In this document: piece after piece, positions 21,066 to 46,096 of the stretch | How the letters are laid out: each line of letters opens with the position of its first letter | How positions within the stretch are numbered: the stretch's first letter is position 1 | Origin: Deltaproteobacteria bacterium | Lineage (GTDB): Bacteria > Myxococcota_A > UBA9160 > UBA4427 | Length of the DNA: 64,000 nt | Reading direction: 5' to 3' | Assembly (NCBI GenBank): GCA_029261835.1 | Contig: JAJDAO010000031.1 | Coordinates: 1-64,000, forward strand | Position numbers and translations under genes: made by a program | Notes under the pieces: model-generated | The model's database searches: none | What the model was told of the DNA's origin: nothing | The model's input: the letters and a program-made list of their open reading frames with translations, nothing else

Positions 21066-21145
21066 CTGGAAAAAAATCAAAGTCTGCTCATGTTGGCTTG
21101 CCGAGCTTCCGAAGAGGTAGTTACCTCAGAACGGAGAACCAAGCC
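21066..21145 (+). promoter_or_regulatory. Leader element E1
   Basis: A-run, ATCAAAGTCTGCTCATGTTGG, CTTCCGAAGAGGTAGTTACC, AACGGAGA, then ATG. Member of the 13-copy leader family; first copy in the window. Confidence 0.7.
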
Positions 21146-21340
21146 ATGAACGACACGATCACAAGCTACGCACTCGACGCAAGCCAGCTCCCCGGCGCGA
21201 TCGACTCACTCGGGACGATCTTCGGCGTTGCCGCCGTTTCGCTCTTCCTCGTCGGAGACTTGATCTTCAACGGCGGTCAGCTCACGGCCGGTCCGCTGCT
21301 TCGCCTTTCGAGAAGCATCAAGGCGAGGGCGGCGCGATGA
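21146..21340 (+). CDS. Small membrane protein (64 aa)
   Basis: Starts at the ATG after leader E1, not at the track start 20852. One hydrophobic helix (LGTIFGVAAVSLFLVGDLIF) near residues 22-41, then a basic tail. Coupled by ATGA to the next gene. Function unknown. Confidence 0.65.
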   Translation: MNDTITSYALDASQLPGAIDSLGTIFGVAAVSLFLVGDLIFNGGQLTAGPLLRLSRSIKARAAR

Positions 21341-22790: not shown

Positions 22791-23693
22791 ATGCCACGCA
22801 TTTGCTACGTCGGAAAGAGCTTCCGCCCCGACTCTCTGAGGATCATCGAACAGGCGAACGTGATTGTCGATGAATATGACGCGCAAGGGTTCACGCTCAC
22901 GCTTCGCCAGCTCTACTATCAGTTCGTCTCGCGCGACCTGATCCCCAACACGCAGCGCAGCTACAAGCGACTCGGAAGCATCATCTCCGACGCGCGGCTC
23001 GCCGGAATGATCGACTGGGAGCAGATCACAGACAGAACGCGTAACGTTCAGGCTCAGTCGCACTGGGACGACCCGTCGAGCATCATCGCAAGCGCGGCGC
23101 GCAGCTACGGCATCGACCTTTGGCAGAGCCAAGATCGGCGCGTCGAAGTCTGGATCGAAAAGGATGCGCTCGCCGGCGTGATCGAAAACGTCTGCGCGGA
23201 GTGGGACGTCTCCTACCTGTCTTGTCGCGGCTACGTTTCGCAGTCCGAAATGTGGGTAGGCGCGCAGCGTTTCAAGGTCTACGACGACGCCGGTCAGCGG
23301 CCCGTCGTGATCCACCTTGGCGACCACGATCCGAGCGGGATCGACATGACGCGCGACATCCAAGACCGGCTGCGCATGCTCAGCGGAACCGACGTCGAAG
23401 TGCGTCGCATCGCGCTGAGCCGCGCGCAAGTCGATCAGTATGGATGCCCTCCGAACCCTGCGAAGCTGACCGACTCGCGCGCCGGAGACTACGTCGAAGA
23501 GCACGGCTTCAGCTCTTGGGAGCTTGACGCGCTCAGCCCACCGACCCTCGTCGAGCTGATCGACACCGAGATCGATTCGATCGTCGATCACGGGCTGTTC
23601 GAAGAGATTCGAACTCAGCAAGAATCCGAGCGTGAAACGCTGAAGGCGATCTCGGATCAATATGAGCGCGTCGTCGAAAACCTCGAGTCTTGA
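22791..23693 (+). CDS. Topoisomerase VI subunit A / Spo11-like protein (Topo 'mini-A' type)
   Basis: 300 aa. N-terminal winged-helix (CAP-like) domain carries LTLRQLYYQFVSR, with a tyrosine where Topo VIA and Spo11 form their DNA-phosphotyrosine bond. The Toprim domain follows: acidic WIEKDAL (Glu) and GDHDPSGIDM (Asp-x-Asp). Other family segments are RLGSIISDARLAG and LSCRGYVSQSEM. No B (GHKL ATPase) subunit is nearby. Stand-alone A-like proteins, called Topo mini-A, are known from mobile elements. It may cut or relax DNA in replication or recombination. It lies between two methyltransferase genes. Confidence 0.85.
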   Translation: MPRICYVGKSFRPDSLRIIEQANVIVDEYDAQGFTLTLRQLYYQFVSRDLIPNTQRSYKRLGSIISDARLAGMIDWEQITDRTRNVQAQSHWDDPSSIIASAARSYGIDLWQSQDRRVEVWIEKDALAGVIENVCAEWDVSYLSCRGYVSQSEMWVGAQRFKVYDDAGQRPVVIHLGDHDPSGIDMTRDIQDRLRMLSGTDVEVRRIALSRAQVDQYGCPPNPAKLTDSRAGDYVEEHGFSSWELDALSPPTLVELIDTEIDSIVDHGLFEEIRTQQESERETLKAISDQYERVVENLES

Positions 23694-23694
23694 G

Positions 23695-23785
23695 ACTTTT
23701 TATTTCTCCGTGAAATCGGCAGGCCGGCTCAAGTCCAACGGGCCGGTCTGCCGAAGAGGCTGGTAACCCAACGGAGAATAGAACC
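23695..23785 (+). promoter_or_regulatory. Leader element E2
   Basis: Stem GGCAGGCCGG/CCGGTCTGCC (one G-T) with loop CTCAAGTCCAACGGG, then GAAGAGGCTGGTAACCCAACGGAGA and ATG. TTTTTATTT lies upstream instead of an A tract. Confidence 0.75.
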
Positions 23786-24088
23786 ATGAAGACGAAGCCG
23801 AACACGATCAGCGAACGCGACTACAAATGGAAGATAGAGCCAAGCGCTCAGTGGACGATCTTCTCGCCGGAAGGCGATCGCATCGGCCAGATCGATGCAG
23901 TTTATGAGCAGAGCTATGTCTCCGGCTCGTCGCGCAGCACGACTTACAAGATTGATTCCTACGAGGTCTCTGTTCGCGGCTTCGACGGTGACGCGATTTT
24001 CGCCGTCGTCGAGCACGGAGACAGCGCGCGCAAGGCATTGGCTGCCGCGAAGAGATTTGCGCGCGACCTTCACGGTCGCGACCAATGA
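23786..24088 (+). CDS. Hypothetical protein behind leader E2
   Basis: 100 aa, beta-rich (YKWKIEPSAQWTIFSPEGDRIGQID). Likely a small folded domain; no known motif. Ends in an ATGA overlap with the second methyltransferase, so leader E2 controls both. Confidence 0.6.
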   Translation: MKTKPNTISERDYKWKIEPSAQWTIFSPEGDRIGQIDAVYEQSYVSGSSRSTTYKIDSYEVSVRGFDGDAIFAVVEHGDSARKALAAAKRFARDLHGRDQ

Positions 24089-24996
24089 ATATCAAAGCGG
24101 TTGACCTCTTCGCCGGAGCAGGCGGCTTCACCGAAGGCGCGCAGCGCGCGGGCGTCGACGTGATCTTCGCTGCGAATCACTGGCCCGTGTCAGTGGATGC
24201 GCACGAAGCGAACCATCCCGGCGTCGAGCATGAATGCCAGGACTTGCGTCAGTTCGACTTCGAGTCACTGCCCGACTTCGACATGCTTCTCGCGTCGCCG
24301 GCGTGTCAGGGACACAGTACGGCCGGCCAGGGCAGCGACAGCGCGAGGGCCGCGAAGAAGCACGAGGCCGACCGCAACACGGCGCTTGCCGTGATCGAGT
24401 GCGCAGACAAGAAGCGCCCCGAGACAATCCTCGTCGAGAACGTCCCGCGCTTCGCCAAGTGGGAGCTGTTCGACTGGTGGTGCGACGGACTGCGCGTGCT
24501 TGGCTACCACGTCACGAGCACGCTTGTCGATGCCGCTGACCTCGGCGTTCCGCAGAACCGCAAGCGCATCGTCGTAGCGGCGTCGCTGAAGGCGCCGGTC
24601 GAGTTCGAGGCGCCGAAGAGCGAGCGCAAGCCATTCTCTTCGGTGCTGCTCGACATTGACGAAGGATGGACGTCGATCAAAGCCAAGAGCGCGAACATCC
24701 GCAAGCGCATCGACACGGGCCGCGAGAAGCACGGCGATCGCTTCCTGACTCAGTATGTGACGAAGCATCCGGGGCGCAGTCTCGATCGCCCGATCGGAAC
24801 GATCACGACTGCGCCGTCTCACTGGCATCTCGTCGACGGCCAGCAGATGCGCTCGATCACGACGGCCGAGCTGCTCGCTGCGCAGGACTTCCGACCCGAC
24901 TACATCATTCCCGACAACGTCGCCCTTGCGACGCGCCTGATCGGAAACGCGATCCCTCCGGCGCTCGCTAAGTGGGCCATCGAACAGGCTGCCTGA
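24085..24996 (+). CDS. DNA cytosine-C5 methyltransferase (second copy)
   Basis: 303 aa, close relative of the 21591 gene. Motifs: DLFAGAGGFTEGAQ, SPACQGHS with the catalytic Cys, ENVPRF, QNRKRIVV, GNAIPP. Shared stretches (FAANHW, CQDLRQFD) show the two arose by duplication or from a common source, while the target-recognition regions differ. Two enzymes with different recognition regions would give two methylated motifs and wider protection. Confidence 0.9.
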   Translation: MNIKAVDLFAGAGGFTEGAQRAGVDVIFAANHWPVSVDAHEANHPGVEHECQDLRQFDFESLPDFDMLLASPACQGHSTAGQGSDSARAAKKHEADRNTALAVIECADKKRPETILVENVPRFAKWELFDWWCDGLRVLGYHVTSTLVDAADLGVPQNRKRIVVAASLKAPVEFEAPKSERKPFSSVLLDIDEGWTSIKAKSANIRKRIDTGREKHGDRFLTQYVTKHPGRSLDRPIGTITTAPSHWHLVDGQQMRSITTAELLAAQDFRPDYIIPDNVALATRLIGNAIPPALAKWAIEQAA

Positions 24997-25070
24997 TTTT
25001 TTTCAAAGTCGCCTCATGTCGCGGGCTCAGGCTTCCGAAGAGGTATGTAACCCCGAACGGAGACTGAACC
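24997..25070 (+). promoter_or_regulatory. Leader element E3
   Basis: TTTTTTTCAAAGTCGCCTCATGT, then CTTCCGAAGAGGTATGTAACC, GAACGGAGA and ATG. Short GCCT/AGGC pairing flanks the loop. Same family as E1. Confidence 0.7.
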
Positions 25071-25568
25071 ATGAACGACCGCACCAAGACCGCCGCCCAA
25101 GCCATCCGCGCCGCGCTGAAGAGCGAGCTTTCCGCAAACTCGAAGAAGGTCAGCGTTCGCATCGATCGCTACTCGATGGGAAGCGCAATCCATGTCGAGA
25201 TCAAAGATGCGAGCATGAAGTTCGCCGAGGTTCATGCGATTGCCTCTGCGTACGAAGAGGTCCGTCGCTGCGAGATCAGCGGCGACATCCTGAGCGGCGG
25301 CAACATGTACGTTTCTGTCGGCTGGAGCCATGGCGCACGCGGCGAGAGGGCGGCGCGTCACGTCGACGCCGTAAAGGAAGCGATGCAGGGAGCCGGCGCG
25401 CACGGCGGCTTCTACGACGTCAGTAGCGCGCGCGGCGTATCGGTCGTGACCGACGGCGTCGGCGGCTTCCAGCTCTTCAAGGGCGGCGCCGCCGGCATGC
25501 ATGTGAACACGGCCGAGACGGCCGCCGCGATCGTTGCCGACTACGTCGACGAACTCGCCGCAGCTTGA
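25071..25568 (+). CDS. Hypothetical protein
   Basis: 165 aa. N-terminal helix with many Lys/Ala, then an alpha/beta body (KVSVRIDRYSMGSAIHVEI; YDVSSARGVSVVTDGVGGFQLF). Reads like a phage protein of the 'large polyvalent-associated' type, but I cannot place it. Strong 15-bp hairpin follows. Confidence 0.6.
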   Translation: MNDRTKTAAQAIRAALKSELSANSKKVSVRIDRYSMGSAIHVEIKDASMKFAEVHAIASAYEEVRRCEISGDILSGGNMYVSVGWSHGARGERAARHVDAVKEAMQGAGAHGGFYDVSSARGVSVVTDGVGGFQLFKGGAAGMHVNTAETAAAIVADYVDELAAA

Positions 25569-26659: not shown

Positions 26660-27106
26660 ATGAAGATTCACATCGCAGCGCTTCTCATCCCTCTCGCCCT
26701 GCTCGTCGGCTGCGTCGGCTGCTCGGGCAGCACGGCGCGCGACGAAGTGCTTGCGCCTGTCGTCATGGACGCGGCACAAGACGTCTTCGACCTCGCCTAT
26801 GTCGGCGTCGAAGGCTGGGATCACGAGCCCGGATCGGGCGGCGCGACAGAGGCCTACAACCGAATCGAGACCTTTCGCGCAAAACTCGAGACTCGCACCT
26901 ACACTGAAGCTGAGATGGCGGCGGACGCCGGCTACCTTCGCGAGTGGGCGCGTCGCGGCGTCGAGGTGCGCATCGCTGCCGGCGAGATAGGCCCCGGCGT
27001 CGCGAAGTCACTGAACGAACGAACAGACCGGCTTTACGATGCGCTGCTCGTGTTGGTCGGCGCGCAGCCGGTCCCCTTGAAGGAGATCCAAAACGATGAA
27101 GACTGA
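26660..27106 (+). CDS. Predicted lipoprotein
   Basis: 148 aa. Signal peptide with lipobox: MKIHIAALLIPLALLVGCVGCSG, cleavage most likely before one of the two Cys (LVGC or CVGC). The mature part is soluble, acidic and helical. Phage lipoproteins of this size are often superinfection-exclusion proteins or outer spanins; the early position favours exclusion, which is only an inference. The next gene starts within its last codons. Confidence 0.65.
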   Translation: MKIHIAALLIPLALLVGCVGCSGSTARDEVLAPVVMDAAQDVFDLAYVGVEGWDHEPGSGGATEAYNRIETFRAKLETRTYTEAEMAADAGYLREWARRGVEVRIAAGEIGPGVAKSLNERTDRLYDALLVLVGAQPVPLKEIQNDED

Positions 27107-27530: not shown

Positions 27531-27569
27531 GCCGACTCCGAGGGCATCGCCTTCGGAGTCGGCTTTTTT
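27531..27569 (+). terminator. Strong intrinsic terminator
   Basis: GCCGACTCCGA/TCGGAGTCGGC extended by further pairs to about 15 bp with an ATC loop, then TTTTTT. Ends the 25.9-27.5 kb unit. A second hairpin, CGTCGCGC/GCGCGACG, lies just upstream at about 27489-27520. Confidence 0.9.
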
Positions 27570-27573
27570 GGGT

Positions 27574-27601
27574 TTGCATTTATTCGAGACCGAGATACTG
27601 T
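27574..27601 (+). promoter_or_regulatory. Promoter-like motif before ncRNA candidate
   Basis: TTGCATTTATTCG, then GATACTGT about 15 bases on. It stands between two terminators, so whatever it makes is a short RNA. Confidence 0.5.
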
Positions 27602-27602
27602 T

Positions 27603-27777
27603 CGTTCGTTCGCGGCGAGCGTCCGCTCGCTGCCTTGAGACTCCCCGTCTACCGCGTGTCCCCGCGAATCGGCGCTTTCGGGGCTCGTCGCGAACACTTC
27701 AAACGCATGCGCCCTCGCGGGAGGGCGGAGAGCTTCAAGGGTCAGCGCGTCGCCTTCGGGCGGCGCGCTGTTTTCGT
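27603..27777 (+). ncRNA. Candidate structured small RNA (about 175 nt)
   Basis: Bounded by a promoter-like motif (27574) and a terminator with a UUCG loop (27744-27777), with no plausible gene inside. Stable hairpins are visible: GCGAGC/GCTCGC, CCCCG/CGGGG and GCCCTC/GAGGGC. The ORFs listed here by the track have no ribosome-binding sites and poor codon patterns. It resembles a stand-alone sRNA gene; function unknown. Confidence 0.5.
27744..27777 (+). terminator. Intrinsic terminator with UUCG tetraloop
   Basis: AGCGCGTCGCC-TTCG-GGCGGCGCGCT (11 bp, one wobble), followed by GTTTTCGTTT. Confidence 0.85.
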
Positions 27778-27785
27778 TTGAATGG

Positions 27786-27814
27786 TTTCATTTTGTTCGC
27801 GCCTCGATTACGAT
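27786..27814 (+). promoter_or_regulatory. Promoter-like motif for the recombination operon
   Basis: TTTCATTTTGTTCG with TACGAT 17 bases after TTTCAT. Leads into the 27851 gene, which has an AGGAG site. Confidence 0.5.
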
Positions 27815-27850: not shown

Positions 27851-28297
27851 ATGACCGACACGATTCAAGCAGAAGATGCGGCGCTAACGCTCGTCGACAT
27901 CGCGAGGCTTTACACCGAGGCTGACCGCAGGAGGAAGCTCGCCGCGAAAGACATGGAAGACCTCGAAGTCGCAGCGATCGCGCTGACGAACTTCGACAAA
28001 GGCGAAGGCTCGGCGACCTACGCTGAGGAAACGGATCACGGCCGCTGCAAGGTCGTGTTGAACCAGCGCGTCAATACGTCTGTCGATATGGACGAGTGGG
28101 GCAACGTGAAGAAGGGCATCGGAGGCGCCCTCGCGCGCAAGCTCATGAAGCCGAAGTACAGCCTTGTTCTAGCAGAGATGCGCCTGCTCGAAGAGCAAGA
28201 TCCCGCGACCTACGCGAAGGTCGCGAAGTGCATCTCGCGAAAGCCCGGTAAGGTTTCGTTCGAGGTCAAGGAACTCGTGATTCGGGGCGACGACTGA
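27851..28297 (+). CDS. Phage protein of unknown function, Sak4-operon member
   Basis: 148 aa from the ATG at 27851 (AGGAG upstream). Helical N-terminus, then a beta region (KVVLNQRVNTSVDMDEW) and a C-terminal 'KCISRKPGKVSFEVKEL'. Proteins of this kind are often found just upstream of Sak4-type ATPases. Stop overlaps the next ATG by one base (TGATG). Confidence 0.6.
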   Translation: MTDTIQAEDAALTLVDIARLYTEADRRRKLAAKDMEDLEVAAIALTNFDKGEGSATYAEETDHGRCKVVLNQRVNTSVDMDEWGNVKKGIGGALARKLMKPKYSLVLAEMRLLEEQDPATYAKVAKCISRKPGKVSFEVKELVIRGDD

Positions 28298-29112
28298 TGG
28301 CTATCAACCTCGCTTCGCACACGAAGACAGGCGTTCGCATCAAGCCGCCGAAGGTCGCGCTCATGGGCGTGGGCGGCATCGGAAAGACGACGTTCGCGGC
28401 CGGCGCGACGAAGCCTTACTTCCTGTTCACGGAAGAGGGTCAGGGCAAGCTCGATCTGCCGCGCCTTGAGCTGCGCGAAGACGATCCGGTTATCCGAACG
28501 TGGGATGAAATCATGGGCGCCGTCGGCGCGCTCTATGAGCAGGAGCACGAACACAAGACGCTTGTGATCGACACGCTCGACGGACTCGAGCCGCTGCTCT
28601 GGGCAAAGGTCTGCGAGGATCACAACGCGTCATCGATCGAAGATGTCATGGGCGGATATGGGAAAGGCTACGTCGTCGCAGCGGATTACGGTCGCCGTCT
28701 GCTTCAGGGCCTTGACGCACTCCGCAACGACCGAAAGATGGCGATCGTTCTTCTCGCGCACATCGAGCGCAAGCGGTTCGAGCCGCCGGACTCGCCGGCC
28801 TATGATCGCTACAAGCTGCGTCTTCAGAACCGCTTCGCAGACCTTGTGCAAGAGTGGGTTGACGTTCTGATGTTCGCGAACTGGAAGGTCCACGTCGTCA
28901 CGGAGACAGACAAGCGAACCAAGTCAGAGCGCAAGCGCGGCGCCGGATCTGGAGAACGCGTCATGTACACCGAAGAGCGTCCGGCGCACTGGGGAAAGAA
29001 CCGTTACGGCCTTCCGTTCGAAATGCCTCTTAGCTGGGCGGCGTTCGCGGGCGCGATGGCCGCTTCAATCAACCCGCAGGCGACGCAGTCGTCTGCATCG
29101 ACACAGGAGTAA
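28297..29112 (+). CDS. RecA-fold ATPase, Sak4-like single-strand annealing/recombination protein
   Basis: 271 aa. Walker A GVGGIGKTTF at about residues 25-35 and Walker B TLVIDTLDG at about 87-95, the layout of the phage ATP-binding family that includes Sak4 recombinases. These work with a partner single-strand-binding protein on phage DNA. The next gene is that partner (DUF669) and a Cas4-type nuclease and helicase follow, giving a recombination operon. Confidence 0.8.
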   Translation: MAINLASHTKTGVRIKPPKVALMGVGGIGKTTFAAGATKPYFLFTEEGQGKLDLPRLELREDDPVIRTWDEIMGAVGALYEQEHEHKTLVIDTLDGLEPLLWAKVCEDHNASSIEDVMGGYGKGYVVAADYGRRLLQGLDALRNDRKMAIVLLAHIERKRFEPPDSPAYDRYKLRLQNRFADLVQEWVDVLMFANWKVHVVTETDKRTKSERKRGAGSGERVMYTEERPAHWGKNRYGLPFEMPLSWAAFAGAMAASINPQATQSSASTQE

Positions 29113-29118
29113 GGAAAC

Positions 29119-29667
29119 ATGGCGAAGCTGAACAAGCCCTTCAACTCGGGAGATGTCGAGCCGAACAAAGCGTTCGAACTCATCCCGAACGGCTGGTACG
29201 CGATGCTGATCAGCGAGAGCGAGATCAAGCCCGTGAACGACAAGCCGCAGTGCTGGTACGTCAAGCTCCGGCACGAAGTCGCCGAGGGCTACCATCCCGA
29301 ACACGCGAACCGAGTGGTCTTCAGCAATCTGAACCTTGGCAACGACAACCCCGACGCCGTTCAGATTGCAGAGCGCGACTTCTCTGCGATCTGCCGCGCG
29401 GTCGGCAAGCCGATCGTCGAAGACACCGACGAGGTTCACGGCATTCTGATGTCGGTCAAGATCGGAACCAAGGCCGCGCGCGCTGGCTACGACGCACAGA
29501 ACGTCGTGAAGGGCTACGCGCCGCTCTCCGAACACTTCAAGCCGACAACGGCCCCCGTCGCTGCAACTGCAGCCGACAAGCCGGCCGCAGCGCCAGCGAG
29601 CGGCGCTGCGGGAGAGCCGGCGCCGTGGGAAAGAGGCGACAAGCCCTCGACTCCGACCGGCGGCTGA
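29119..29667 (+). CDS. DUF669 single-strand-DNA-binding partner
   Basis: 182 aa. 'PNGWYAMLISESEIKP ... WYVKLRHEV' followed by 'RVVFSNLNL' matches DUF669, proposed single-strand-DNA-binding proteins next to Sak4-like ATPases. The last 45 residues are a disordered Pro/Ala tail ending in acidic/Gly residues, like the interaction tails of SSB proteins. Six bases after the ATPase gene. Confidence 0.75.
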   Translation: MAKLNKPFNSGDVEPNKAFELIPNGWYAMLISESEIKPVNDKPQCWYVKLRHEVAEGYHPEHANRVVFSNLNLGNDNPDAVQIAERDFSAICRAVGKPIVEDTDEVHGILMSVKIGTKAARAGYDAQNVVKGYAPLSEHFKPTTAPVAATAADKPAAAPASGAAGEPAPWERGDKPSTPTGG

Positions 29668-29788
29668 TCGCGCAACCGGGGCGCTCGGGCTCCCGATGCC
29701 GCTACGGCATTGAAGATCGATGCGCACGTCTCCCTGCGTGCGCATCGATCGCCGGGCAACTCACGCACTCGAAGCCAGGTCCGAACGC

Positions 29789-30742
29789 ATGGTCAAGATC
29801 CCTGAGCGCAAGCTGTCGACGTCAGACGCGCTTCATCAGCACTACGAAGAGAGCGGCTCCGACTGGCGCCGCGATCATCTCGGCGCCTCGTTGATCGGGC
29901 GTGAATGCACGCGCCAGCTCTGGTACGGGTTCCGATGGTCTGCCGCTCCGAAGTTCCCCGGACGCGTGCTCAGGCTGTTCGAGCGCGGTCAACGCGAAGA
30001 AGAGTGGCTCGCGCGCGACCTGCGTGCGATCGGCGTCGATCTCAGGACAACGCAGGAAGACAGCGAGGATCAGATTCGCGTTCTGCTTTTCCCGCACTTC
30101 GGCGGATCGTGCGACGGCGTCGGACTCGGATTTCTCGAAGCTCCGAAGACGTGGCATGTCTGGGAGTGCAAGACGTCGAACGCAAAGCAGTTCGCGATCC
30201 TGAAGAAGCAGGGCGTCGAGAAGGCGAAGCCTGAGCACTACGCGCAGATGCAGCTCTACATGCACGGCCTGAAGCTAAAGCGCGCGTTCTACCAGTGCGT
30301 TTGCAAAGACAACGACGAGATCCATCAAGAGCGCATTCACTACGACCGTGCGTTCGCCGAGTCGCTCATCGCCAAGGCCGATCACGTCGTCTTCGCAAGC
30401 GAGCCGCTCTCGAAGATCTCAGAAAACCCGACGTTCTATAAGTGCAAGTGGTGCGACTTCGCGGGCATCTGCCAGTATCGCGAGGTCGAGTCGCTCGAAC
30501 GCAACTGCCGAACATGCGCGAGCGTCACTTGCATGAAGGACGGGACTTGGCGATGCGATCATTTCCAAAAGACGCTGACGCCTCAAGAGCAGCGCGATGG
30601 ATGCGGCCAGCATCTTTTCATCCCTAAGATGCTCCCGTGGGAGCCTCGAGATTTCGACGAGATCGCTCGCGCAATGACCTACATCGATGAGCAGGGCGCG
30701 CGCGTCATCGACCAGGGCGGCGAGCTGACGGTTCGTCCCTGA
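29789..30742 (+). CDS. Cas4/RecB-like PD-(D/E)XK nuclease with Fe-S-type cysteines
   Basis: 317 aa from the ATG at 29789 (AGG upstream; the earlier track ATG has none). Nuclease core: GSCDGVGLG (Asp), WECKTS (Glu-x-Lys) and QLYMHG (Gln). An early Cys in GRECTRQLWYG and a later CKWCDFAGIC supply four cysteines as in Cas4/AddB [4Fe-4S] nucleases. An extra CRTC...C group lies after them. Expected to resect DNA ends for the Sak4-type system. Overlaps the helicase ATG. Confidence 0.8.
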   Translation: MVKIPERKLSTSDALHQHYEESGSDWRRDHLGASLIGRECTRQLWYGFRWSAAPKFPGRVLRLFERGQREEEWLARDLRAIGVDLRTTQEDSEDQIRVLLFPHFGGSCDGVGLGFLEAPKTWHVWECKTSNAKQFAILKKQGVEKAKPEHYAQMQLYMHGLKLKRAFYQCVCKDNDEIHQERIHYDRAFAESLIAKADHVVFASEPLSKISENPTFYKCKWCDFAGICQYREVESLERNCRTCASVTCMKDGTWRCDHFQKTLTPQEQRDGCGQHLFIPKMLPWEPRDFDEIARAMTYIDEQGARVIDQGGELTVRP

Positions 30743-32403
30743 TGTCCGTTCTCGTTCCGCGCGACTATCAAGAGGCGTGCATCGCTGCGCATTACAGCTA
30801 CTTCGATCACGCCACTGGGAACCCGTTGTTCGTGGTGCCTACGGGCGGCGGCAAGTCGCTGATCATCGCTGAGTTCATCAAGCGCACGCTGTCGCGATGG
30901 AAGCACACTCGAATCCTCGTGCTGACGCACGTCAAAGAGCTGATCGAGCAGAACCACGATGAGCTGCTTTCGCAGTGGGGCGGCACGTTCTGCCCGGTCG
31001 GTATCTATTCGGCCGGCGCAGGGCGGCGCGACGTCCATGATCAGATCATCTTCGCGGGCATTCAGTCGATCTGGGACAAGGCCGAACTGCTCGGTCACTT
31101 CGATCTTGTGCTCATCGACGAAGCACACTTGGTTCCGAAGAAAGGCCAAGGCCGATACCTGAGCTACCTCGAAGATCTTCGAGCAATCAATCCGCGAGCG
31201 CGTGTGTGCGGCTACACGGCGACGCACTATCGCTTGGATGGCGGCTACCTTCACTCCGGCGAAGGCCGCATGTTCACCGAAGTCGCCTACGACGTTCCTG
31301 TCGAGCTGCTGATCGAGCAGGGGTATCTAGCGCCGCTCGTTGCGAAGAGGCCCGAGCATGTCATCAACACTGAAGGCCTCGGCATGTCGGCCGGCGACTT
31401 CAAGAGCGGCGAGCTTGAAGCCGCTGCCATGGCTGGCGAGTGCGTCGAGCTTGCCGTCGCCGAGACCGTTCAAATCGCGCGCGCAGAGAATAGAAAATCA
31501 CTGCTCTTCTTCGCGTCAGGCATCAGCCACGCCGAGAAGATTATCGACGAGCTTGCAAGCCATGATGTCGAAGCGCTCGGGGTGTTCGGTGGAACCCCGA
31601 AGGAATCTCGGGCCGACACTGTCTCGCGATTCAAAAACGGAGAACTCGAAGCGCTCGTGAATGTTGGCGTTCTAACGACGGGATTCAACGCGCCTCGATG
31701 CGACTTGATGGCAGTCATGCGCGCGACGCATTCGGCTTCGCTTTATGTTCAGATCATGGGACGCGGGATGCGCATCTTCCCCGGCAAGAAAGACTGTCTC
31801 GTTCTCGACTACGGGCTGAACGTCGAGCGCCACGGGCCGATCAATCGCGTGAAGCCGACGAAGCCAGGTTCTGGAAACGGAAAAAGCGAAACCCCCGTGA
31901 AAGAGTGCCCGGAGTGTCACGCGTATTCGATGCTCGCGGTAGGCGCCTGCTCGCACTGCGGATACGCATGGCCCGAAAGAAAGGCCGGCGTTAGCCATGA
32001 GAACGAAGCGAGCTTCGCCTCGCCGATCGACATGCAGCCCGAGAGACCGAACATCAAAAGGGTGACCGACATGTTCTTTCGGCGGCACACGAAGCCGGGC
32101 TCCCCCGACTCGATGCGCGTCGACTACGTTCTCGGCGTCACAGTCGTCAGCGAGTGGGTTTGCATCGAACACAAGGGATATGCGCAGCATCGCGCGGCGG
32201 AGTGGTGGCTGCGGTTTGCCAAACCCCCGTTCCCTTCGAGCGTCGATCAGGCGATCGAGCGATCCGACGAGATCAGAAGACCTGTCGCGATCTCGGTCAA
32301 GTTCGACCGGAAGTTCAATCGCCCCGGAGCCGCATACTTCACCGAAGACGACCTTCCTAGCGCGATGCCGGCAGACGAGGCCGTCGAAGACATACCGTTC
32401 TAG
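30742..32403 (+). CDS. DEAH-box superfamily 2 helicase with zinc ribbon
   Basis: 553 aa. Motif Q/I: PRDYQEACI and PTGGGKS. Motif II: LIDEAH. Motif III: GYTAT. Motif VI: QIMGRGMR. A CPEC...CSHC zinc ribbon at about residues 390-410 follows the helicase core, and a 130-residue C-terminal domain has no recognised family. It resembles the restriction-type/SSL2 helicases used in phage replication or recombination. Follows the nuclease with a one-base overlap. Confidence 0.9.
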   Translation: MSVLVPRDYQEACIAAHYSYFDHATGNPLFVVPTGGGKSLIIAEFIKRTLSRWKHTRILVLTHVKELIEQNHDELLSQWGGTFCPVGIYSAGAGRRDVHDQIIFAGIQSIWDKAELLGHFDLVLIDEAHLVPKKGQGRYLSYLEDLRAINPRARVCGYTATHYRLDGGYLHSGEGRMFTEVAYDVPVELLIEQGYLAPLVAKRPEHVINTEGLGMSAGDFKSGELEAAAMAGECVELAVAETVQIARAENRKSLLFFASGISHAEKIIDELASHDVEALGVFGGTPKESRADTVSRFKNGELEALVNVGVLTTGFNAPRCDLMAVMRATHSASLYVQIMGRGMRIFPGKKDCLVLDYGLNVERHGPINRVKPTKPGSGNGKSETPVKECPECHAYSMLAVGACSHCGYAWPERKAGVSHENEASFASPIDMQPERPNIKRVTDMFFRRHTKPGSPDSMRVDYVLGVTVVSEWVCIEHKGYAQHRAAEWWLRFAKPPFPSSVDQAIERSDEIRRPVAISVKFDRKFNRPGAAYFTEDDLPSAMPADEAVEDIPF

Positions 32404-32460: not shown

Positions 32461-32548
32461 GCTTCTGCGACCGATCAGGAAAGGCCGGCCGCTTTCAGGT
32501 CGCGGGCTTTTGAAGAGCGCGCGACGTTCCTCTCTAGGAGAACGAACC

Positions 32549-33067
32549 TTGAAGATGTTCAGCACCTTCCTCGCTGCGATGCTGCTCGCGGCCTCTCTCT
32601 TCGGCGGCATGGTCAACGCTACGCCGGTTGCAGGAGAACTCTCGTCGCCTGCAGCGTTCGCGTTCGACAACGAAGACGACTGGGGCCTTCCCGCTCTGAC
32701 CGCCGTCGACATCGTCACCGGACTCGAAACGCGCGTGTTCGAAAGCGGGCTTGTGCTCACGCTCGATCAGGACTTGTGGAGCGATCTTGAGCGTCGCGCT
32801 TCGCCCGCATTCGCCGCAGCGCTTGACGGCAGCGGCGGTACTGGCGACGAGTCGATCACTCTCGAATGGTGGTCTGGAAACATCAAGATCACGCTTCGCT
32901 TGACTCCGAAGGGAAGCGAGAAGCCGGGCGAGTTCGCTAAGCGGCTAGGCGACACGCTCGACACACTGCAGAAGTTCTTGCCCGACACCGGGCCGCCTAG
33001 CGGCGGCGGGCAAGGCAGCGGAGGCGGCGGCAGCGGCGGCGGCGCTGCCGGCAGCCTCGGCGGCTGA
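32549..33067 (+). CDS. Secreted Gly-rich protein
   Basis: 172 aa. TTG start 8 bases after AGGAG (alternative ATG at 32555). Signal peptide MFSTFLAAMLLAASLFGGMVNA. The mature part is acidic then amphipathic (WWSGNIKITLRLTPKG), ending in a Gly/Ser tail rich in GGG. The exported tail may act in the envelope. Strong terminator follows. Function unknown; an envelope-modifying or exclusion role would be a guess. Confidence 0.6.
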   Translation: MKMFSTFLAAMLLAASLFGGMVNATPVAGELSSPAAFAFDNEDDWGLPALTAVDIVTGLETRVFESGLVLTLDQDLWSDLERRASPAFAAALDGSGGTGDESITLEWWSGNIKITLRLTPKGSEKPGEFAKRLGDTLDTLQKFLPDTGPPSGGGQGSGGGGSGGGAAGSLGG

Positions 33068-34280: not shown

Positions 34281-36923
34281 ATGGGAGCCCGTCACTTACA
34301 GCTCGCGCTTTCATACGCCGAGCTTGGATGGCAGGTCTTCCCGGTCCACTCGGTCGACGCGGACGGCAAGTGCTCATGCCATGACCCCGGCGGTCCAAAC
34401 TGCTCGCCGGGCAAGCATCCGCGCACGCGTCACGGACTGAAAGACGCAACCGATCTCGAAGAGACTGTCGTCGAGTGGTGGTCGCGATGGCCTGACGCGA
34501 ACATCGGCATCGCGACGGGAGAGGCGTCGGGCCTTTGGGTTCTCGACGTCGACATTCGTTTCGATCGATCGACCGGCGAGATCAAGACCGACGGCGAGGC
34601 GTCACTCGCAAAACTCGAGGCCGACAACGAAGCTCTTCCGAGCACGATGACGGCCAAGACCGGCGGCGGCGGTCGGCACATCTATTTCGCGTGGGACTCC
34701 GACGTTCCTGTCGGATGCCCCGGCGGCATGCCGAAGGGAATCGACATCAAGGGCGAGGGCGGCTACGTCTTGGCCCCGCCGTCGCTACATGCCTCTGGCA
34801 TCCGCTACGCGTGGCTCTCCGACCCCGAGACCTCTCCGCTCGCGCCGGCGCCGCCGTGGCTCGTCAGGCGCGTCCTGAGCGGCCCTGAGCGCGGCCACGG
34901 CTCTCCGCCGGCCGGAGACAGCCGCGACCCGCCGCAGGCCGGCACGCCGGCGCCCTGCGGCCCTCTGGCAGCCGTCGACGGCGTCGACGAAGAGATGCTT
35001 CAGGCCTTGGCGACGATCCCGCCGAACGTCGGGTACGAAGATTGGCTCGCCGTGGCGATGGGCCTTCACGAAGAGACCGGCGGAAGCGAAGCCGGATTCG
35101 GCGTCTTCCTCTCGTGGTCGGCGCGAGCCGAGGGCTTGCTGACGCCGAGCGGGAAGCCAGCCTTCGCCGGCGAAGGCGGGTGTCGCGCCAAGTGGAACAG
35201 CTTCTCGACATCCATCGGGAAGAACTCGCGCGGCCGGCGGACGGTCTTCGACATCGCGATCCGGCGCTTCGGCTTCAGGCCTCTGAAGCTGCCCGAGCAA
35301 CAGAACGACGCTTCGCCGGCGCAAGCGATGCCGGCACTCTCGCTGAAGCCAGAGTGGATTTGGGATCGACACGCAGCGCCAGAGTTCCCGATCGATGAAG
35401 CCTTCCCGCCCGCGCTGACATGGCTTCGCGAGTTCCTGAAGAAGCTCGCGTGGACCTATCAAGTCCCGGTCGACCTTCCGGTTCTACTCGCGGCCCCGAT
35501 CGCAATGTCGGCGCTCGCCGGCAAACTCGAAGTGAAGGTTCCCGGCGAGCGCTGGAAAGAGCCGGCCGTACTCTGGACGATCTGCGCGATGACATCGGGC
35601 TCGGGCAAATCTCCCGTTCACAGAGATCTGATTCGGCCTGTGCGCGAATGGGAAAAGGCGCTCGACAACAGCTCCGCCGAAGCCGAGCACGCAACGCGAC
35701 TGATGCTCGCCGAGTCCGACATCAAGCGCGCGCTGCGCGAAGTAGAGAAGACCGCCAAGGGTCTGAACGAAGAGTCGAAGAAGCGCGCGGCTGACGAGCT
35801 GCTCGAAGCGAACAAGAAGCTCGCTTTCGCGAAGGCCTCGGTCGTCACGAGCGACGCGATTATCGCATCGGAGGCAACCTCCGAGCGACTCGTCGAACTG
35901 CTTCAGCGCAGCCAAGGTCGCGTGCTCGTCTCGGACTCGGAGGGCGACACGTTTGATGTCGCGATGGGGCGCTACAGCAGCGGCGCCCCGAACCTCGGCC
36001 CATGGCTAAAGGGGTACGACGGAGATCAGATCAAGCAAGAGCGCATCGGTGGCGACCGCGTTGTTCACAGGCCGCTGATCAACGTCGGCGTTGCGACGCA
36101 GCCAGAGGCTCTGCAGTTTCTTTCGGACAAGGTCGCGCAGGGCCGAGGCTTTGTAGCCAGGTTCGCGGCCGCCATCGTGTCGCCGTCCGTAGGGCGCCGG
36201 TTCATGCCGGGCCGCGACATGGAAGACGCTGAGTTCTCGCAGTGGGAGCGACGCATTACCGAACTGCTCAACGTGAAGCGCATCGAAGAGCCCGACGAGA
36301 TCACGCTCAGTGAAGAGGCGCGGCGTGAGTTCGCGGAGTGGGGGCAAGACCTATTCAGCGAGATGGACAAGATCGAGATCGACGAGGGCGAAGATCCGCG
36401 CGATGCATGGCATCGCAAATACCCCGGCAAGGTGCTGCGCATCGCGCTTCTTCTTCACGGCATCCAGGAAGACGGCCTGCGCCGAGCCGTCATCGACCTT
36501 CACACGATGCGCGCTGCGATTGCATGGGGTCAGTACCTCGCAGGGCATAACAAGTCGATCTCTGCGACACTGCGAGACGACCCCGAGCTTCGCATCGCCG
36601 AGCGCGCGCTCGAATGGCTCGATCGAAAAGGCTACAGCGGAAAGACGTTCACGCGCCGCGACCTTCAGCGCGGCCTGCAGGGCGGACGCTCTTCAGTGAA
36701 GACCGTCCACGATCTCGCCGGGCCTCTCGCCGTACTCGTCGAAACGAACTGGATAACCGGCATCGGAAAGCCTGTCGCCGCAAGCGGGCCGAGGCCGCAG
36801 ACATGGAAGACCTACCAAGTGAACGCCTCGCTCTCTGAGACGCTCGACGAGCACAGGGCCGCGCCGGCGAACCCGTCACGCGAGAAGCTAAAGGCCGAAG
36901 ACGGCCGCCCGAAGCGATGGTAG
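34281..36923 (+). CDS. Primase-polymerase with PriCT and DUF3987 helicase-like domain
   Basis: 880 aa from the ATG at 34281, where the Prim-Pol fold begins (ALSYAELGWQVFPV). Residues 1-190: bifunctional primase/polymerase domain with the metal-binding LDVD pair near 90 and GGGGRHIYF near 130; a CSCHDPGG...C cluster may bind zinc. Residues about 225-310: PriCT-like module (YEDWLAVAMGLHEETGG). Residues 360-830: DUF3987-type ATPase with TSGSGKSPVH as Walker A. It should prime and open the phage origin. No separate DNA polymerase was seen, so replication probably uses the host enzyme. Confidence 0.85.
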   Translation: MGARHLQLALSYAELGWQVFPVHSVDADGKCSCHDPGGPNCSPGKHPRTRHGLKDATDLEETVVEWWSRWPDANIGIATGEASGLWVLDVDIRFDRSTGEIKTDGEASLAKLEADNEALPSTMTAKTGGGGRHIYFAWDSDVPVGCPGGMPKGIDIKGEGGYVLAPPSLHASGIRYAWLSDPETSPLAPAPPWLVRRVLSGPERGHGSPPAGDSRDPPQAGTPAPCGPLAAVDGVDEEMLQALATIPPNVGYEDWLAVAMGLHEETGGSEAGFGVFLSWSARAEGLLTPSGKPAFAGEGGCRAKWNSFSTSIGKNSRGRRTVFDIAIRRFGFRPLKLPEQQNDASPAQAMPALSLKPEWIWDRHAAPEFPIDEAFPPALTWLREFLKKLAWTYQVPVDLPVLLAAPIAMSALAGKLEVKVPGERWKEPAVLWTICAMTSGSGKSPVHRDLIRPVREWEKALDNSSAEAEHATRLMLAESDIKRALREVEKTAKGLNEESKKRAADELLEANKKLAFAKASVVTSDAIIASEATSERLVELLQRSQGRVLVSDSEGDTFDVAMGRYSSGAPNLGPWLKGYDGDQIKQERIGGDRVVHRPLINVGVATQPEALQFLSDKVAQGRGFVARFAAAIVSPSVGRRFMPGRDMEDAEFSQWERRITELLNVKRIEEPDEITLSEEARREFAEWGQDLFSEMDKIEIDEGEDPRDAWHRKYPGKVLRIALLLHGIQEDGLRRAVIDLHTMRAAIAWGQYLAGHNKSISATLRDDPELRIAERALEWLDRKGYSGKTFTRRDLQRGLQGGRSSVKTVHDLAGPLAVLVETNWITGIGKPVAASGPRPQTWKTYQVNASLSETLDEHRAAPANPSREKLKAEDGRPKRW

Positions 36924-41232: not shown

Positions 41233-41260
41233 TTGCGCATTTTCGTTTGTCGAATAATAT
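41233..41260 (+). promoter_or_regulatory. Promoter before leader E4
   Basis: TTGCGC, 16 bases, TAATAT; TTGCGCATTTTCG resembles the recurring motif. The transcript would begin within a few bases of the CTCATGT of leader E4. It starts the accessory operon on + while the minus pair diverges. Confidence 0.55.
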
Positions 41261-41334
41261 CAAACCTCGCTCATGTCGCTGCGGCCATCCGCCGAAGATA
41301 GCTGCTCAAGCGGACCTCTCCCGGAAAACATCCA
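41255..41334 (+). promoter_or_regulatory. Leader element E4 (diverged)
   Basis: ATCAAACCTCGCTCATGTCGC ... CCGAAGATAGCTGCTC; the GTAACC and ACGGAGA parts are altered. Lies directly after a promoter. Confidence 0.45.
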
Positions 41335-41652
41335 ATGAAGACCGTCACACGCAAGATCGGAAGCAACCGAGGCCGGCCGCGCCTCTGGCTCGAAGGCAAG
41401 CTGCTGAGCGACGCAGGGTTCAAGCCCGGCGATCGCTACGACAGGACTTTCGGTTCAGGGCTGACCATACTTCTTCAGAAGCGCTCAGATGGCGCCTACA
41501 CGGTGAGCGGGAAAGGCGAGAAGCCGATCATCGACATCGCCGGCGCCGATCTGATCAGGGCCTTTAGCAAGCTCGGCGTCATGCCGAAGTCTGTCAGCGT
41601 CAAGGCTCTTGAACGAGGCTCAGGCATCGTCTGCGACGCGATCTTCGAATAG
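41335..41652 (+). CDS. AbrB/SymE-like small protein
   Basis: 105 aa. 'SNRGRPRLWLEGKLLSDAGFKPGDRYDRTF' resembles the swapped-hairpin domain seen in SpoVT/AbrB- and SymE-like proteins and as a companion of some cytosine methyltransferases. A later 'KPIIDIAGADLIRAF' and 'SVKALERGSGIVCDAIF' complete a beta domain. DNA binding is possible but unproven. Confidence 0.5.
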   Translation: MKTVTRKIGSNRGRPRLWLEGKLLSDAGFKPGDRYDRTFGSGLTILLQKRSDGAYTVSGKGEKPIIDIAGADLIRAFSKLGVMPKSVSVKALERGSGIVCDAIFE

Positions 41653-41721
41653 AATGAAACTCATCTCATGTTACTGGGCGCCTCTTCCGAATAGGTAGGT
41701 AACCCCGACAAGGAACACGAG
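41653..41721 (+). promoter_or_regulatory. Leader element E5
   Basis: CTCATGTTACTGG, CTTCCGAATAGGTAGGTAACC, AAGGAA then ATG. GAATAGG replaces GAAGAGG. Confidence 0.65.
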
Positions 41722-41904
41722 ATGAACAGCCCGCGCATCGACAGCAACCTGACCTTCTTCCCTCACCACATCGCCGAAGCCAAGGCCGCAGCGCTTCAGG
41801 AGAGCGACCCCGAATGGAGCTACTTCGCACTTCCCTGCATCGTCGGCCCTTACTCGATCATCTTGGCGATCGACGAAGAGGGCGCTCTGCTCGGGAACTT
41901 CTAG
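41722..41904 (+). CDS. Small hypothetical protein (60 aa)
   Basis: Follows leader E5. 'SYFALPCIVGPYSIILAIDEEGALLG' looks like a beta sheet end. No motif. Confidence 0.55.
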   Translation: MNSPRIDSNLTFFPHHIAEAKAAALQESDPEWSYFALPCIVGPYSIILAIDEEGALLGNF

Positions 41905-43364: not shown

Positions 43365-43888
43365 GCAAGCGATACGGAAGAAACCAAAAGCGACGCGCGC
43401 GAGAGCGTATTCAAAGCCTTGAATCTCAGTGCTCTTCGCTGCGCCTATCTGCCGAAGCGCTACGCAGCAAAGAGAGCAAGTCGGCGAGGCTGATGCAGTT
43501 CGTGAGCGCGCGACTCAGGGAGGTCGGAGCGGACATGTCGCCCATGGAAGAAGCGCGATCGATCGAGCTGCGCCTTCCTGAAGACGCAAGGGAGTTCCGG
43601 CTTCCCGTTCATGGCCCCGCGCTGTCTATTCACGAGGCTGGCGCGCTGGCCGCTCTCGATTCGATCGCAGAGTCAGTGGCGATGCGTGTCATCGAAGCCG
43701 GCATCGAGAGGTCGGCGGGCGATCTTCGCGGAGAGGTTCATGCCTACGCGACATTCGGAAGCAGCCGAAGGGCCGTGTACACGATGAGCGATCAGGCTTT
43801 CTTTGAGGCTTCCTACAGCGGGCGCATTCACGAAGAGATCGCGCGCAGGCTGAATGAAGAGCTTCACCGCATACCTCCGTTCAGGTAA
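43361..43888 (+). CDS. Hypothetical coiled-coil protein
   Basis: 175 aa. Basic N-terminus (SKRYGRNQKRRARERI), then a coiled coil (SLESQCSSLRLSAEALRSKES), then a folded region (VHGPALSIHEAGALAAL). No enzyme motif. Precedes the cassette array. Confidence 0.55.
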   Translation: MSKRYGRNQKRRARERIQSLESQCSSLRLSAEALRSKESKSARLMQFVSARLREVGADMSPMEEARSIELRLPEDAREFRLPVHGPALSIHEAGALAALDSIAESVAMRVIEAGIERSAGDLRGEVHAYATFGSSRRAVYTMSDQAFFEASYSGRIHEEIARRLNEELHRIPPFR

Positions 43889-43957
43889 TCCGAAACCAGG
43901 TTCAAGTCGCCCTGCTTGTCTGCCGAAGAGGATGGCATCCCAAACGGAGACAGCTCG
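43889..43957 (+). promoter_or_regulatory. Leader element E6
   Basis: CAGG-TTCAAGTCGC-CCTG small stem, CTGCCGAAGAGGATGGCATCCC, AACGGAGA, ATG. Confidence 0.65.
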
Positions 43958-44239
43958 ATGATCAACGACTACGGAATCGAAACCGACGCGATCGCAGTCC
44001 GCGACGTGATCGCCTTCAAGCTCGACGTCGAGCACTACGCCGAGATCATCGAGGTACGTCGATCGCGCCTCGGCGGGCGCGAGTTCGTCGTCAGGATGCG
44101 CGAGGAAGATGGCGAGGCGCAGCTCGAAGCGGGCGACGAGCATGCAGTCTGGGAGCGCGACGCGTTCGATCACTTGCCATCCAAGCGCGGAGTCTCTGAG
44201 ATTTCTTCGAAGTCGGCTCATGTTGAGCGGTTCGCTTGA
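43958..44239 (+). CDS. Cassette gene 1: hypothetical acidic protein
   Basis: 93 aa from the ATG after E6. Acidic beta-type protein (YAEIIEVRRSRLGGREFVVRM). The last 13 codons (EISSKSAHVERFA) are read through the first half of leader E7, and an out-of-frame CTCTGAGA lies where other cassettes have TGAGAAA, suggesting a lost stop. Confidence 0.55.
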   Translation: MINDYGIETDAIAVRDVIAFKLDVEHYAEIIEVRRSRLGGREFVVRMREEDGEAQLEAGDEHAVWERDAFDHLPSKRGVSEISSKSAHVERFA

Positions 44240-44274
44240 CGAAGAGGTAGGTACCTCGCAACGGAGACTCAGCA
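44209..44274 (+). promoter_or_regulatory. Leader element E7
   Basis: TTCGAAGTCGGCTCATGTTGAG ... GACGAAGAGGTAGGTACCTC, AACGGAGA, ATG. Its 5' half is inside the previous gene. Confidence 0.65.
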
Positions 44275-44505
44275 ATGAGCAACGAAGCCAAAGCAAACGA
44301 AGCGCCCGCGCCCGACCAAAGCATCGACGCAGAGCTTCTGCGCGACTTGGTCGCCGAACTTTCTGACGCCGCGAAGCGCCGGATCGTGAAGAAGTACAAG
44401 AAGCGCGTCGACGGCATGCGCAACAGCCAGACGCCAGGGCATGCGTTCTGGTTTCCCGAGCACTCCGCCGCATTGCAGCGCGTGAAGAGCGTCATCGGCG
44501 TTTGA
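44275..44505 (+). CDS. Cassette gene 2: hypothetical helical protein
   Basis: 76 aa. Two helices (SIDAELLRDLVAELSDAAKRRIVKKYKKRV) then PGHAFWFPEHSAALQRV. No family recognised. Ends in TGAGAAAAAA, the start of leader E8. Confidence 0.55.
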   Translation: MSNEAKANEAPAPDQSIDAELLRDLVAELSDAAKRRIVKKYKKRVDGMRNSQTPGHAFWFPEHSAALQRVKSVIGV

Positions 44506-44581
44506 GAAAAAAGGCAGCCGGCGCTCAAGTCAAAGGGCGCCGGCTGCCGAAGAGGCTGGTAACCCAACGGAGACTCTGACG
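44506..44581 (+). promoter_or_regulatory. Leader element E8
   Basis: Best-paired copy: GGCAGCCGGCGC (44513-44524) with GCGCCGGCTGCC (44537-44548), 12 bp perfect, loop TCAAGTCAAAGG, then GAAGAGGCTGGTAACCCAACGGAGA. A-run on the 5' side. Confidence 0.8.
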
Positions 44582-44920
44582 ATGACCACCAAGATCAAGT
44601 TCGCTCGCGCCCTCGGGCGCTGCCGCGCTTGCAAGGCCGGCGTCTCTGCCCCTGTGATCAAGGTCATGACCGAGCGCGGAGAGCATCGCCCCGGCGTGCC
44701 GATCATCAAGACCGAGTTCGTTTGGGCGACCCGTCGCGCCGCGCGCCCCGTGCGCTTCAGCTCCGCGAGTGTTGAATGCGCGTGCGGCGCGGCAGTGAGC
44801 GTGTCCGTCGTCAAAGGCCGCGTGAACGCTGACGCCGCTTGCAACGCGAAGTGCGAGGCCTCGACCGGCCCGACCTGCGAGTGCGCCTGCGGCGGCGAGA
44901 ACCACGGCTCTGCGCACTGA
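44582..44920 (+). CDS. Cassette gene 3: Cys-rich metal-binding protein
   Basis: 112 aa with nine Cys: CRACK near the start, CACG in the middle, CNAKC and CECACGGENHG at the end. Pattern suggests two zinc sites. Beta strands between. Similar Cys-rich ends occur in small proteins of actinophages and other phages. Role unknown. Confidence 0.6.
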   Translation: MTTKIKFARALGRCRACKAGVSAPVIKVMTERGEHRPGVPIIKTEFVWATRRAARPVRFSSASVECACGAAVSVSVVKGRVNADAACNAKCEASTGPTCECACGGENHGSAH

Positions 44921-45019
44921 GAAAAGATCGCCTGCAGGTATCAAGTCGCAGGCTCGACTTCGACGAAGAGGCTGCTACCGGCAGCAAGCCGCAGCCGGGC
45001 AAAACGAAAGGGAAGCGCC
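44921..45019 (+). promoter_or_regulatory. Leader element E9 (longer)
   Basis: GAGAAAAG, stem GCCTGC/GCAGGC with loop AGGTATCAAGTC, then GACGAAGAGGCTGCTACC and an unusual 40-base extension to AAAGGGAAG and ATG. Confidence 0.65.
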
Positions 45020-45340
45020 ATGAAGAACGACCACGATCAGCACGCCGGCGAGCATTGCGACTTCGAGCCTACGACTGGCGTTTGCGAGGTCTGCGGAGTT
45101 TCGAACGACATCTGCGAAGAGTGCGACGGCGTCGGCTATCACCGCGACGACTGCGCGCACGCCGACAGCGGAGATGCTCTCTTCGACGCGATTCAGGCGC
45201 CGCTCGCCGAGGCCTTCCGGTTGCTGCGCGGGCTCGACGAGGAACTCTGCGAGGCCTCGGCTCGCCTTGCCGAACTGAAGCCGGGCGACCTCGCTCGCGT
45301 GCGCAAGATCGTCGACACCCTGAAGCAGATTCGGATCTGA
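45020..45340 (+). CDS. Cassette gene 4: Cys/His-rich N-terminal domain
   Basis: 106 aa. Residues 10-50 carry CDFEPTTGVCEVCGV and CEECDGVGYHRDDC, a probable pair of zinc sites. The C-terminal half is a helix hairpin (LLRGLDEELCEASARLAEL). No family recognised. Confidence 0.6.
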   Translation: MKNDHDQHAGEHCDFEPTTGVCEVCGVSNDICEECDGVGYHRDDCAHADSGDALFDAIQAPLAEAFRLLRGLDEELCEASARLAELKPGDLARVRKIVDTLKQIRI

Positions 45341-45416
45341 GAAAAATCTCGAGATCAGCTCAGGTTGCGAGCGCCGGCTTCCGAAGAGGTATGTACCTCG
45401 CGACGGAGATCGCACG
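45341..45416 (+). promoter_or_regulatory. Leader element E10
   Basis: GAGAAAAAT, GCTCAGGTTGCGAGC, CTTCCGAAGAGGTATGTACCTC, GACGGAGA, ATG. Confidence 0.65.
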
Positions 45417-45707
45417 ATGAGCTACACAAAGAAAAGCCCGGCCCGATTCGCCTGCTCGACCTGCGGCATCGCTCATGACGGCATGCGCGACGCCGTCGAA
45501 TGCTGCCCCGAGATTCTTCTCAGCAAGCAGGTCGTCGCGTTTCTTCCGAGCCGCCCCGAGATCGGTTCGGTCGTCTGGTCTGCCTTCGTTGCCTTCGAGA
45601 CCGGCGACGTCGAGCGCAGGTTCAACTACTGGCATCGCCGCGCGCTGCGCGCCCTCGCGCGCGGCATGAGCGAGGCTGAGCACAACCCCGCTTGCTACGG
45701 CGTCTGA
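45417..45707 (+). CDS. Cassette gene 5: small protein with CxxC
   Basis: 96 aa. CSTCGIAHDGMRDAVECC near the N-terminus is a likely zinc site; the remainder is helical and basic (FNYWHRRALRALARGMSEAEH). Unknown function. Ends in TGAGAAAAA. Confidence 0.55.
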   Translation: MSYTKKSPARFACSTCGIAHDGMRDAVECCPEILLSKQVVAFLPSRPEIGSVVWSAFVAFETGDVERRFNYWHRRALRALARGMSEAEHNPACYGV

Positions 45708-45784
45708 GAAAAAGCCAGCGCGCCTCTCAAGTCCATGGGGCGCGCTGGCCGAAGAGATTGTTACCCACGAACGGAGACAACGCC
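45708..45784 (+). promoter_or_regulatory. Leader element E11
   Basis: GCCAGCGCGCC (45714-45724) with GGCGCGCTGGC (45739-45749), 11 bp perfect, loop TCTCAAGTCCATGG, then CGAAGAGATTGTTACC and AACGGAGA. A-run on the 5' side. Confidence 0.8.
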
Positions 45785-46018
45785 ATGAAGGCCCCGAGCA
45801 ACAGACCGACCGAGAGAGTCAGCATCGCCGGCTACCTCGCCGACCTTCTTCATCAAGGCCCGGTCAACGGACAAGAGCACTACGTCGTGTCGCGAGCGAA
45901 CGGCATGTTTCAGATCTGGACCGACGACCCGCCCGGCGCTTCCGACGGATACCCGCGCTGCGTGGTTCAGTCCGAAGACCTGAACAAGCTGCGCGCGTGG
46001 TGGAAGGCCAACGCCTGA
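45785..46018 (+). CDS. Cassette gene 6: hypothetical protein
   Basis: 77 aa from the ATG after E11; the track start is in the leader. 'YVVSRANGMFQIWTDDPPGASDG' is beta-like; a final helix NKLRAWWKA. No family recognised. Confidence 0.55.
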   Translation: MKAPSNRPTERVSIAGYLADLLHQGPVNGQEHYVVSRANGMFQIWTDDPPGASDGYPRCVVQSEDLNKLRAWWKANA

Positions 46019-46096
46019 GAGAAAAAACCTTCGGGCGGACTCACGTCGAGCCGCCCGAAGGTCGAAGAGGTTGTTACCCCCAAGCGAGCGACAGCC
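46019..46096 (+). promoter_or_regulatory. Leader element E12
   Basis: CCTTCGGGCGG (46028-46038) with CCGCCCGAAGG (46051-46061), 11 bp perfect, loop ACTCACGTCGAG, then TCGAAGAGGTTGTTACC. The ribosome-binding part is altered (AAGCGAGCG). Long A-run on the 5' side. Confidence 0.8.

Follow-up and report, generated by a model that had tools for sequence, protein, structure and literature searches.

The window analysed here comprises bases 1-64000 of a 64,045-base contig that belongs to a 6.5-Mb metagenome-assembled genome. A 34-nt repeat is found at both ends of this contig (bases 1-34 against the end at 64045, the last base excepted), which suggests phage rather than host DNA, the contig being probably a circular assembly of a complete genome of about 64.0 kb. 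Its structural, packaging and replication genes are listed in Table 1, together with the features discussed below. Intergenic DNA makes up 11% of the window, and the candidate RNA unit that is the subject of this work lies in such DNA, between two gene blocks and just 5' of the DUF7173/Sak4/SSB/exonuclease/helicase operon. The phage also carries a gene of the sulfatase family (PF00884, E 1e-38) amid its head and tail genes (55644-56960, plus strand), as well as two paralogous C-5 cytosine DNA methylase genes (PF00145; 21591-22505 and 24085-24996, plus strand) that stand 1.6 kb apart and are separated by an ORF of unknown family (22791-23693).

Table 1. Positions in the window of the candidate RNA unit, its predicted parts and putative targets, the surrounding phage genes and a repeated 82-nt element.
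Feature	Position	Strand	Remarks
Terminator T1, upstream operon	27531-27569	+	stem 27531-27563, U tract 27564-27569
Promoter P1 (very probable)	27574-27602	+	TTGCAT (27574-27579), N17, TACTGT (27597-27602); 14-nt motif TTGCATTTATTCGA from 27574
Candidate non-coding RNA, ~165-170 nt	27608-27775	+	both ends inferred; no ORF; folds
Fold A, long 5' stem-loop	27608-27695	+	outer arms 27608-27620 / 27683-27695, 13 bp
Fold A, second hairpin	27710-27727	+	
Fold B	27612-27739	+	hairpin 27612-27633 and long hairpin 27634-27739
Possible antisense seed CUUCAAGGG	27733-27741	+	partly accessible in fold A, paired in fold B
Terminator T2	27743-27778	+	stem 27743-27770, UUCG loop, tail TTTTCGTT
Promoter P2, replication operon	27786-27814	+	TTTCAT (27786-27791), N17, TACGAT (27809-27814)
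Putative target CCCTTGAAG	27074-27082	+	9-nt seed complement over the Shine-Dalgarno of gene 27096
Putative target CCTTGAAG	32547-32554	+	8-nt seed complement right before the ATG of gene 32555
Recombination/replication operon	27851-32403		DUF7173, Sak4-like ATPase, SSB-like, weak PD-(D/E)XK nuclease, helicase
DUF7173 gene, first of the operon	27851-28297	+	
Sak4-like gene, after DUF7173	28297-29112	+	
Prim-Pol/DUF3987 primase-helicase	34281-36923		
Major head protein	880-1881		
Tape measure	5946-8945		
TerL, Terminase_6C-type	51880-53364		
Portal, Mu-like	53367-54878		
82-nt element, full	21067-21148, 23710-23788, 24995-25073, 41645-41723, 43883-43960, 44200-44277	+	
82-nt element, full	44505-44584, 45340-45419, 45707-45787, 46021-46098, 48855-48934	+	
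82-nt element, partial	41251-41298, 44927-44979	+	

The signals that delimit the unit are those of the preliminary description, which had placed a strong terminator before it, a UUCG-loop terminator at its end and a further promoter right after it, and all three were recovered. T1 has a 15-bp stem followed by TTTTTT (-30.3 kcal/mol), T2 has a 12-bp stem capped by the UUCG loop and followed by TTTTCGTTT (-24.3 kcal/mol), and P2 begins 16 nt past the T2 stem. Strong intergenic terminators of the plus strand are found at five places only in the window (20068, 27531, 27743, 33091 and 40503).

The promoter-like motif TTGCATTT that had been seen at the head of the unit turns out to belong to a longer promoter-type motif, TTGCATTTNNTTCG. 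It is to this longer motif that the enrichment is limited, the bare TTTGCATTT being no more frequent than expected by chance. A generic sigma-70 scan gave no match at 27574, because the hexamers of P1 are TTGCAT-N17-TACTGT. We built a matrix for the 14-nt TTGCATTTNNTTCG from six intergenic sites (25865, 27574, 27786, 32433, 34237 and 36969), and these are also its six best matches in the window as a whole, with both strands counted; every one is intergenic and on the plus strand. In a leave-one-out analysis, each site still ranked between 2nd and 20th of 127,974 positions, with 27574 coming 6th. The motif sits upstream of a TAnnnT sequence, in the region from 25 to 37 kb, at a spacing of 16-18 nt at four sites and of 22-24 nt at the other two (34237 and 36969). 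A gene follows at five of the six sites, the exception being 27574, ahead of the unit. Counterparts of the motif also exist in related phages, at 1527 in L079 and at 913 and 5007 in L257, the phage contig that holds L078. Indeed, L257 908-943 aligns without gaps to 27568-27603 with 28 of 36 positions identical (78%) and the same -35/-10 spacing (TTGGCT-N17-TACTGT against TTGCAT-N17-TACTGT for P1), and this P1-like promoter stands 5' of an ORF for a 70-aa protein. Given the match to five other sites of the phage and to L257, P1 very probably represents a genuine type of promoter, with its -10 box at 27597-27602.

Counting 6 nt from the -10 box places the predicted start of the RNA near 27608, which is also the first base of the 13-bp stem of fold A. 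The 5' 90 nt (27608-27697) fold at -45 kcal/mol, with a z-score of -3.4 and an energy reached by none of 200 shuffles. The 133-135-nt body has z-scores of about -1.4 to -2.25, while the 5% tail of random windows from this genome lies at -2.5, so that the fold of the whole body appears only modestly unusual and is unremarkable for so GC-rich a genome. The several stable stems that had been noticed are thus present, but their stability goes only modestly beyond chance. Folds A and B have no base pair in common, and B is predicted to lie 0.4 kcal/mol above A. Fold B has a z-score of -3.7 and its energy is matched in 1 of 300 shuffles, yet roughly 2% of 135-nt windows drawn at random from the genome are as extreme, and we therefore treat this bistability, which was noticed after the fact, as a lead. 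An elaborate form of it, in which folds A and B would expose and bury CUUCAAGGG and so toggle a stand-alone sRNA that links the expression of genes 27096 and 32555 to the onset of replication, seems to us a long shot.

Relatives were sought with the exonuclease, the helicase and Sak4 (the latter alone and as an alignment), in scans that returned 2-80 loci each and whose short-peptide seeding can miss moderately close relatives. The best ones (L079, L014 and L257) show 53-58% amino acid identity, and none exceeds 58% near the locus. The DUF7173-Sak4 operon of L079 and L257 follows a single terminator and a promoter, TTGGCT-N17/18-TAGCAT, that carries a version of the motif (at 1527 in L079 and at 5007 in L257) and is the counterpart of P2; in L014, neither is recognisable before the operon. 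The unit is missing at the corresponding place in all three. The layout of L079 and L257 suggests that the terminator followed by P2 is a conserved boundary, and that P1 and the RNA with its second terminator are an extra piece in this phage. It also argues that the downstream operon, having a separate promoter with counterparts in both relatives, does not depend on P1. Searches by blastn and tblastn over the fetched loci (1.95 Mb in 244 loci) and phage records recovered no relative of the unit, and neither did its arm pattern over IMG/VR. The 91 genomes of the host's class gave GC-rich matches of 22-43 nt only, the unit is single-copy in its own genome, and an Rfam scan at gathering and relaxed thresholds returned no family. 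Among 71 loci upstream of Sak4, there was no other clear double-terminator unit. In the viral contig L003 (1009-2760), an intein-like insertion apparently splits the Sak4-like gene right at the Walker A region, as judged by eye from the reading frame.

A possible mode of action is offered by CUUCAAGGG, part of which is among the accessible segments of the predicted RNA. The 8-nt complement of this seed occurs on the plus strand only twice, and both occurrences are in translation start regions, that of gene 27096, which ends the upstream operon just 5' of the unit, and that of gene 32555, which has a motif promoter of its own. Of 85 start regions, 3 carry an antisense match of at least 8 nt, where shuffles give 0.53 (9/300), for a seed that was picked after the fact. 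Duplex energies of the whole RNA with the start regions of the phage are no better than those of controls. The two predicted targets are weak, and we regard the pairing of CUUCAAGGG with them as suggestive.

The unit showed no preferential pairing either with an apparent 5'-UTR element of 82 nt that is repeated elsewhere in the window. This element is a separate finding and, by its sequence statistics, a much stronger one than the RNA unit. Its eleven full copies are all on the plus strand, directly 5' of start codons and often right after a stop codon, with sequence-model E-values from 1.6e-18 to 6.7e-13. They share a layout made of an A-rich stretch, a hairpin with a conserved CUCAnGU and a variable stem, and then CCGAAGAGGn..GUAACCC..AACGGAGA; the CCG can pair with the CGG of the Shine-Dalgarno, a pairing that covariation does not back. 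The SAS/ESAS elements of cluster K mycobacteriophages (PMC3203893) are alike in layout but not in sequence. The 82-nt element matches no Rfam family and is restricted, within its own genome, to this contig, and L257 holds one partial copy (3852-3901, E 1e-6). On the minus strand, the A tract and hairpin of three copies (44513-44548, 45713-45750 and 46026-46063) resemble strong intrinsic terminators, at -28 to -30 kcal/mol and followed by T runs.

Non-coding RNAs of several kinds are found in phages. The packaging RNA of phi29 has about 170 nt and is thus similar in size to our candidate, but it was set aside as a model: the unit has no Rfam match to it, and the phage has a Terminase_6C TerL and a Mu-like portal and no phi29-type packaging ATPase. 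Closer examples are the trans-acting sRNAs encoded between phage genes, such as VpdS of VP882 and PreS/LPR1 of lambda, the latter between ea10 and ral, whose transcripts were seen and whose targets were tested (PMC12197685). Lambda 6S is listed in the same review as an Hfq-dependent phage RNA (PMC12197685). The unit described here is like VpdS and PreS in being a non-coding RNA unit between the protein genes of a phage genome, and differs from them in being known from its sequence alone, for which the searches gave no homologue.

Several other readings of the unit have to be weighed. The lambda 6S RNA is a by-product of pR'-tR', in which a promoter is followed by a short leader and a terminator, and the same could hold here: an antitermination factor or a leaky T2 would let the polymerase into the replication operon, and the short RNA would be incidental. 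The layout agrees, since a promoter, an untranslated RNA of less than 200 nt (about 165 nt) and an intrinsic terminator precede an operon of the same strand that starts 80 nt further on; termination may be incomplete given the interrupted tail of T2 (TTTTCGTTT), and two alternative leader folds are possible. However, the operon has a separate promoter past the terminator, P2, which recurs in type and position in two relatives that lack the unit, L079 and L257. T2, moreover, pairs with a probability of about 1 in the ensemble of the read-through RNA, its disruption costs 12.5 kcal/mol and both leader folds leave it intact. No fold competes with it, so an external factor would be required, and no Q-like or other antitermination protein was identified among the few genes checked. 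These T2 values, together with the lack of any Rfam riboswitch or leader match, make a self-contained cis attenuator or riboswitch unlikely, and the cis role that is left is protein-dependent antitermination or leaky termination, which we consider rather improbable. A little less so, though still doubtful, is that the unit is functionless, an extra promoter and terminator brought by insertion or left by gene loss (a moron minus its gene, for instance). It is found in this phage alone among the genomes compared, its overall fold is unremarkable, and the matching promoter of L257 drives a 70-aa gene, so that the unit could be the remnant of a similar arrangement whose gene was lost. Against this, phages have compact genomes, and this one seldom leaves a gap of 170 nt, the six frames bear no trace of a decayed gene, and the folding of the 5' 90 nt and of fold B is better than that of nearly all shuffles.

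Inverted repeats just 5' of a replication operon could also act as DNA, as part of a replication origin or as a protein-binding or packaging site, and the cumulative GC skew is lowest at about 25.1 kb. This minimum is weak and 2.4 kb off, though; there are no iterons, and of two pairs of short direct repeats, one is the two terminators. P1 and T2 are oriented transcription signals that such an element does not need, and we hold this reading to be very unlikely. Least credible of all is a short peptide gene. ORFs of 24-48 codons do exist on the plus strand (from 27635, 27656 or 27707 to 27781), but they traverse the T2 hairpin, and no plausible plus-strand start in the unit has a Shine-Dalgarno. 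Scored against the codon usage of this phage, all frames within the unit are around 0 or negative, the best reaching 0.05 per codon, where called small genes have a median of 0.26. The peptides of all six frames have no relatives in the fetched loci, so neither protein-level similarity nor a conserved peptide frame, which would have spoken for a gene, came to light, and the earlier view that the unit holds no credible ORF stands.

The best explanation is an RNA of about 165 nt that is made independently and ends at a terminator of its own, and we give roughly even chances to its being a stand-alone non-coding RNA that works as a small regulatory RNA of the phage. The unit has what is expected of intergenic small RNAs of phages, with its own promoter (as far as sequence tells), an intrinsic terminator and no translated ORF. 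The preliminary reading of an independently expressed regulatory RNA is partly supported: its anatomy is borne out, Rfam or sequence relatives were not found, and the predicted targets are weak. Starting from the promoter motif, the terminators, the absence of an ORF and the folds, which are read from the sequence, we infer its transcription, its ends, its action in trans and its targets as follows. P1, of the same promoter type as other operons of the phage, would start the RNA near 27608, and T2 would end it after about 165 nt. Lying between T1, where the upstream operon ends, and P2, the unit would have its own expression and would act as an RNA rather than as a message, most likely during the phase in which the replication operon is expressed. 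The accessible CUUCAAGGG may then pair with a few mRNAs of the phage (or host) at their start regions and repress them.

A unit made of a promoter, an RNA and a terminator is, by itself, an ordinary kind of phage feature, and this one is a plausible single-genome candidate of a known kind. It nevertheless gives a small testable set, consisting of one promoter, one terminator, one seed and two targets. If it is transcribed, it would represent a non-coding regulator added at the boundary of two operons in a phage lineage without close relatives among the collections searched.
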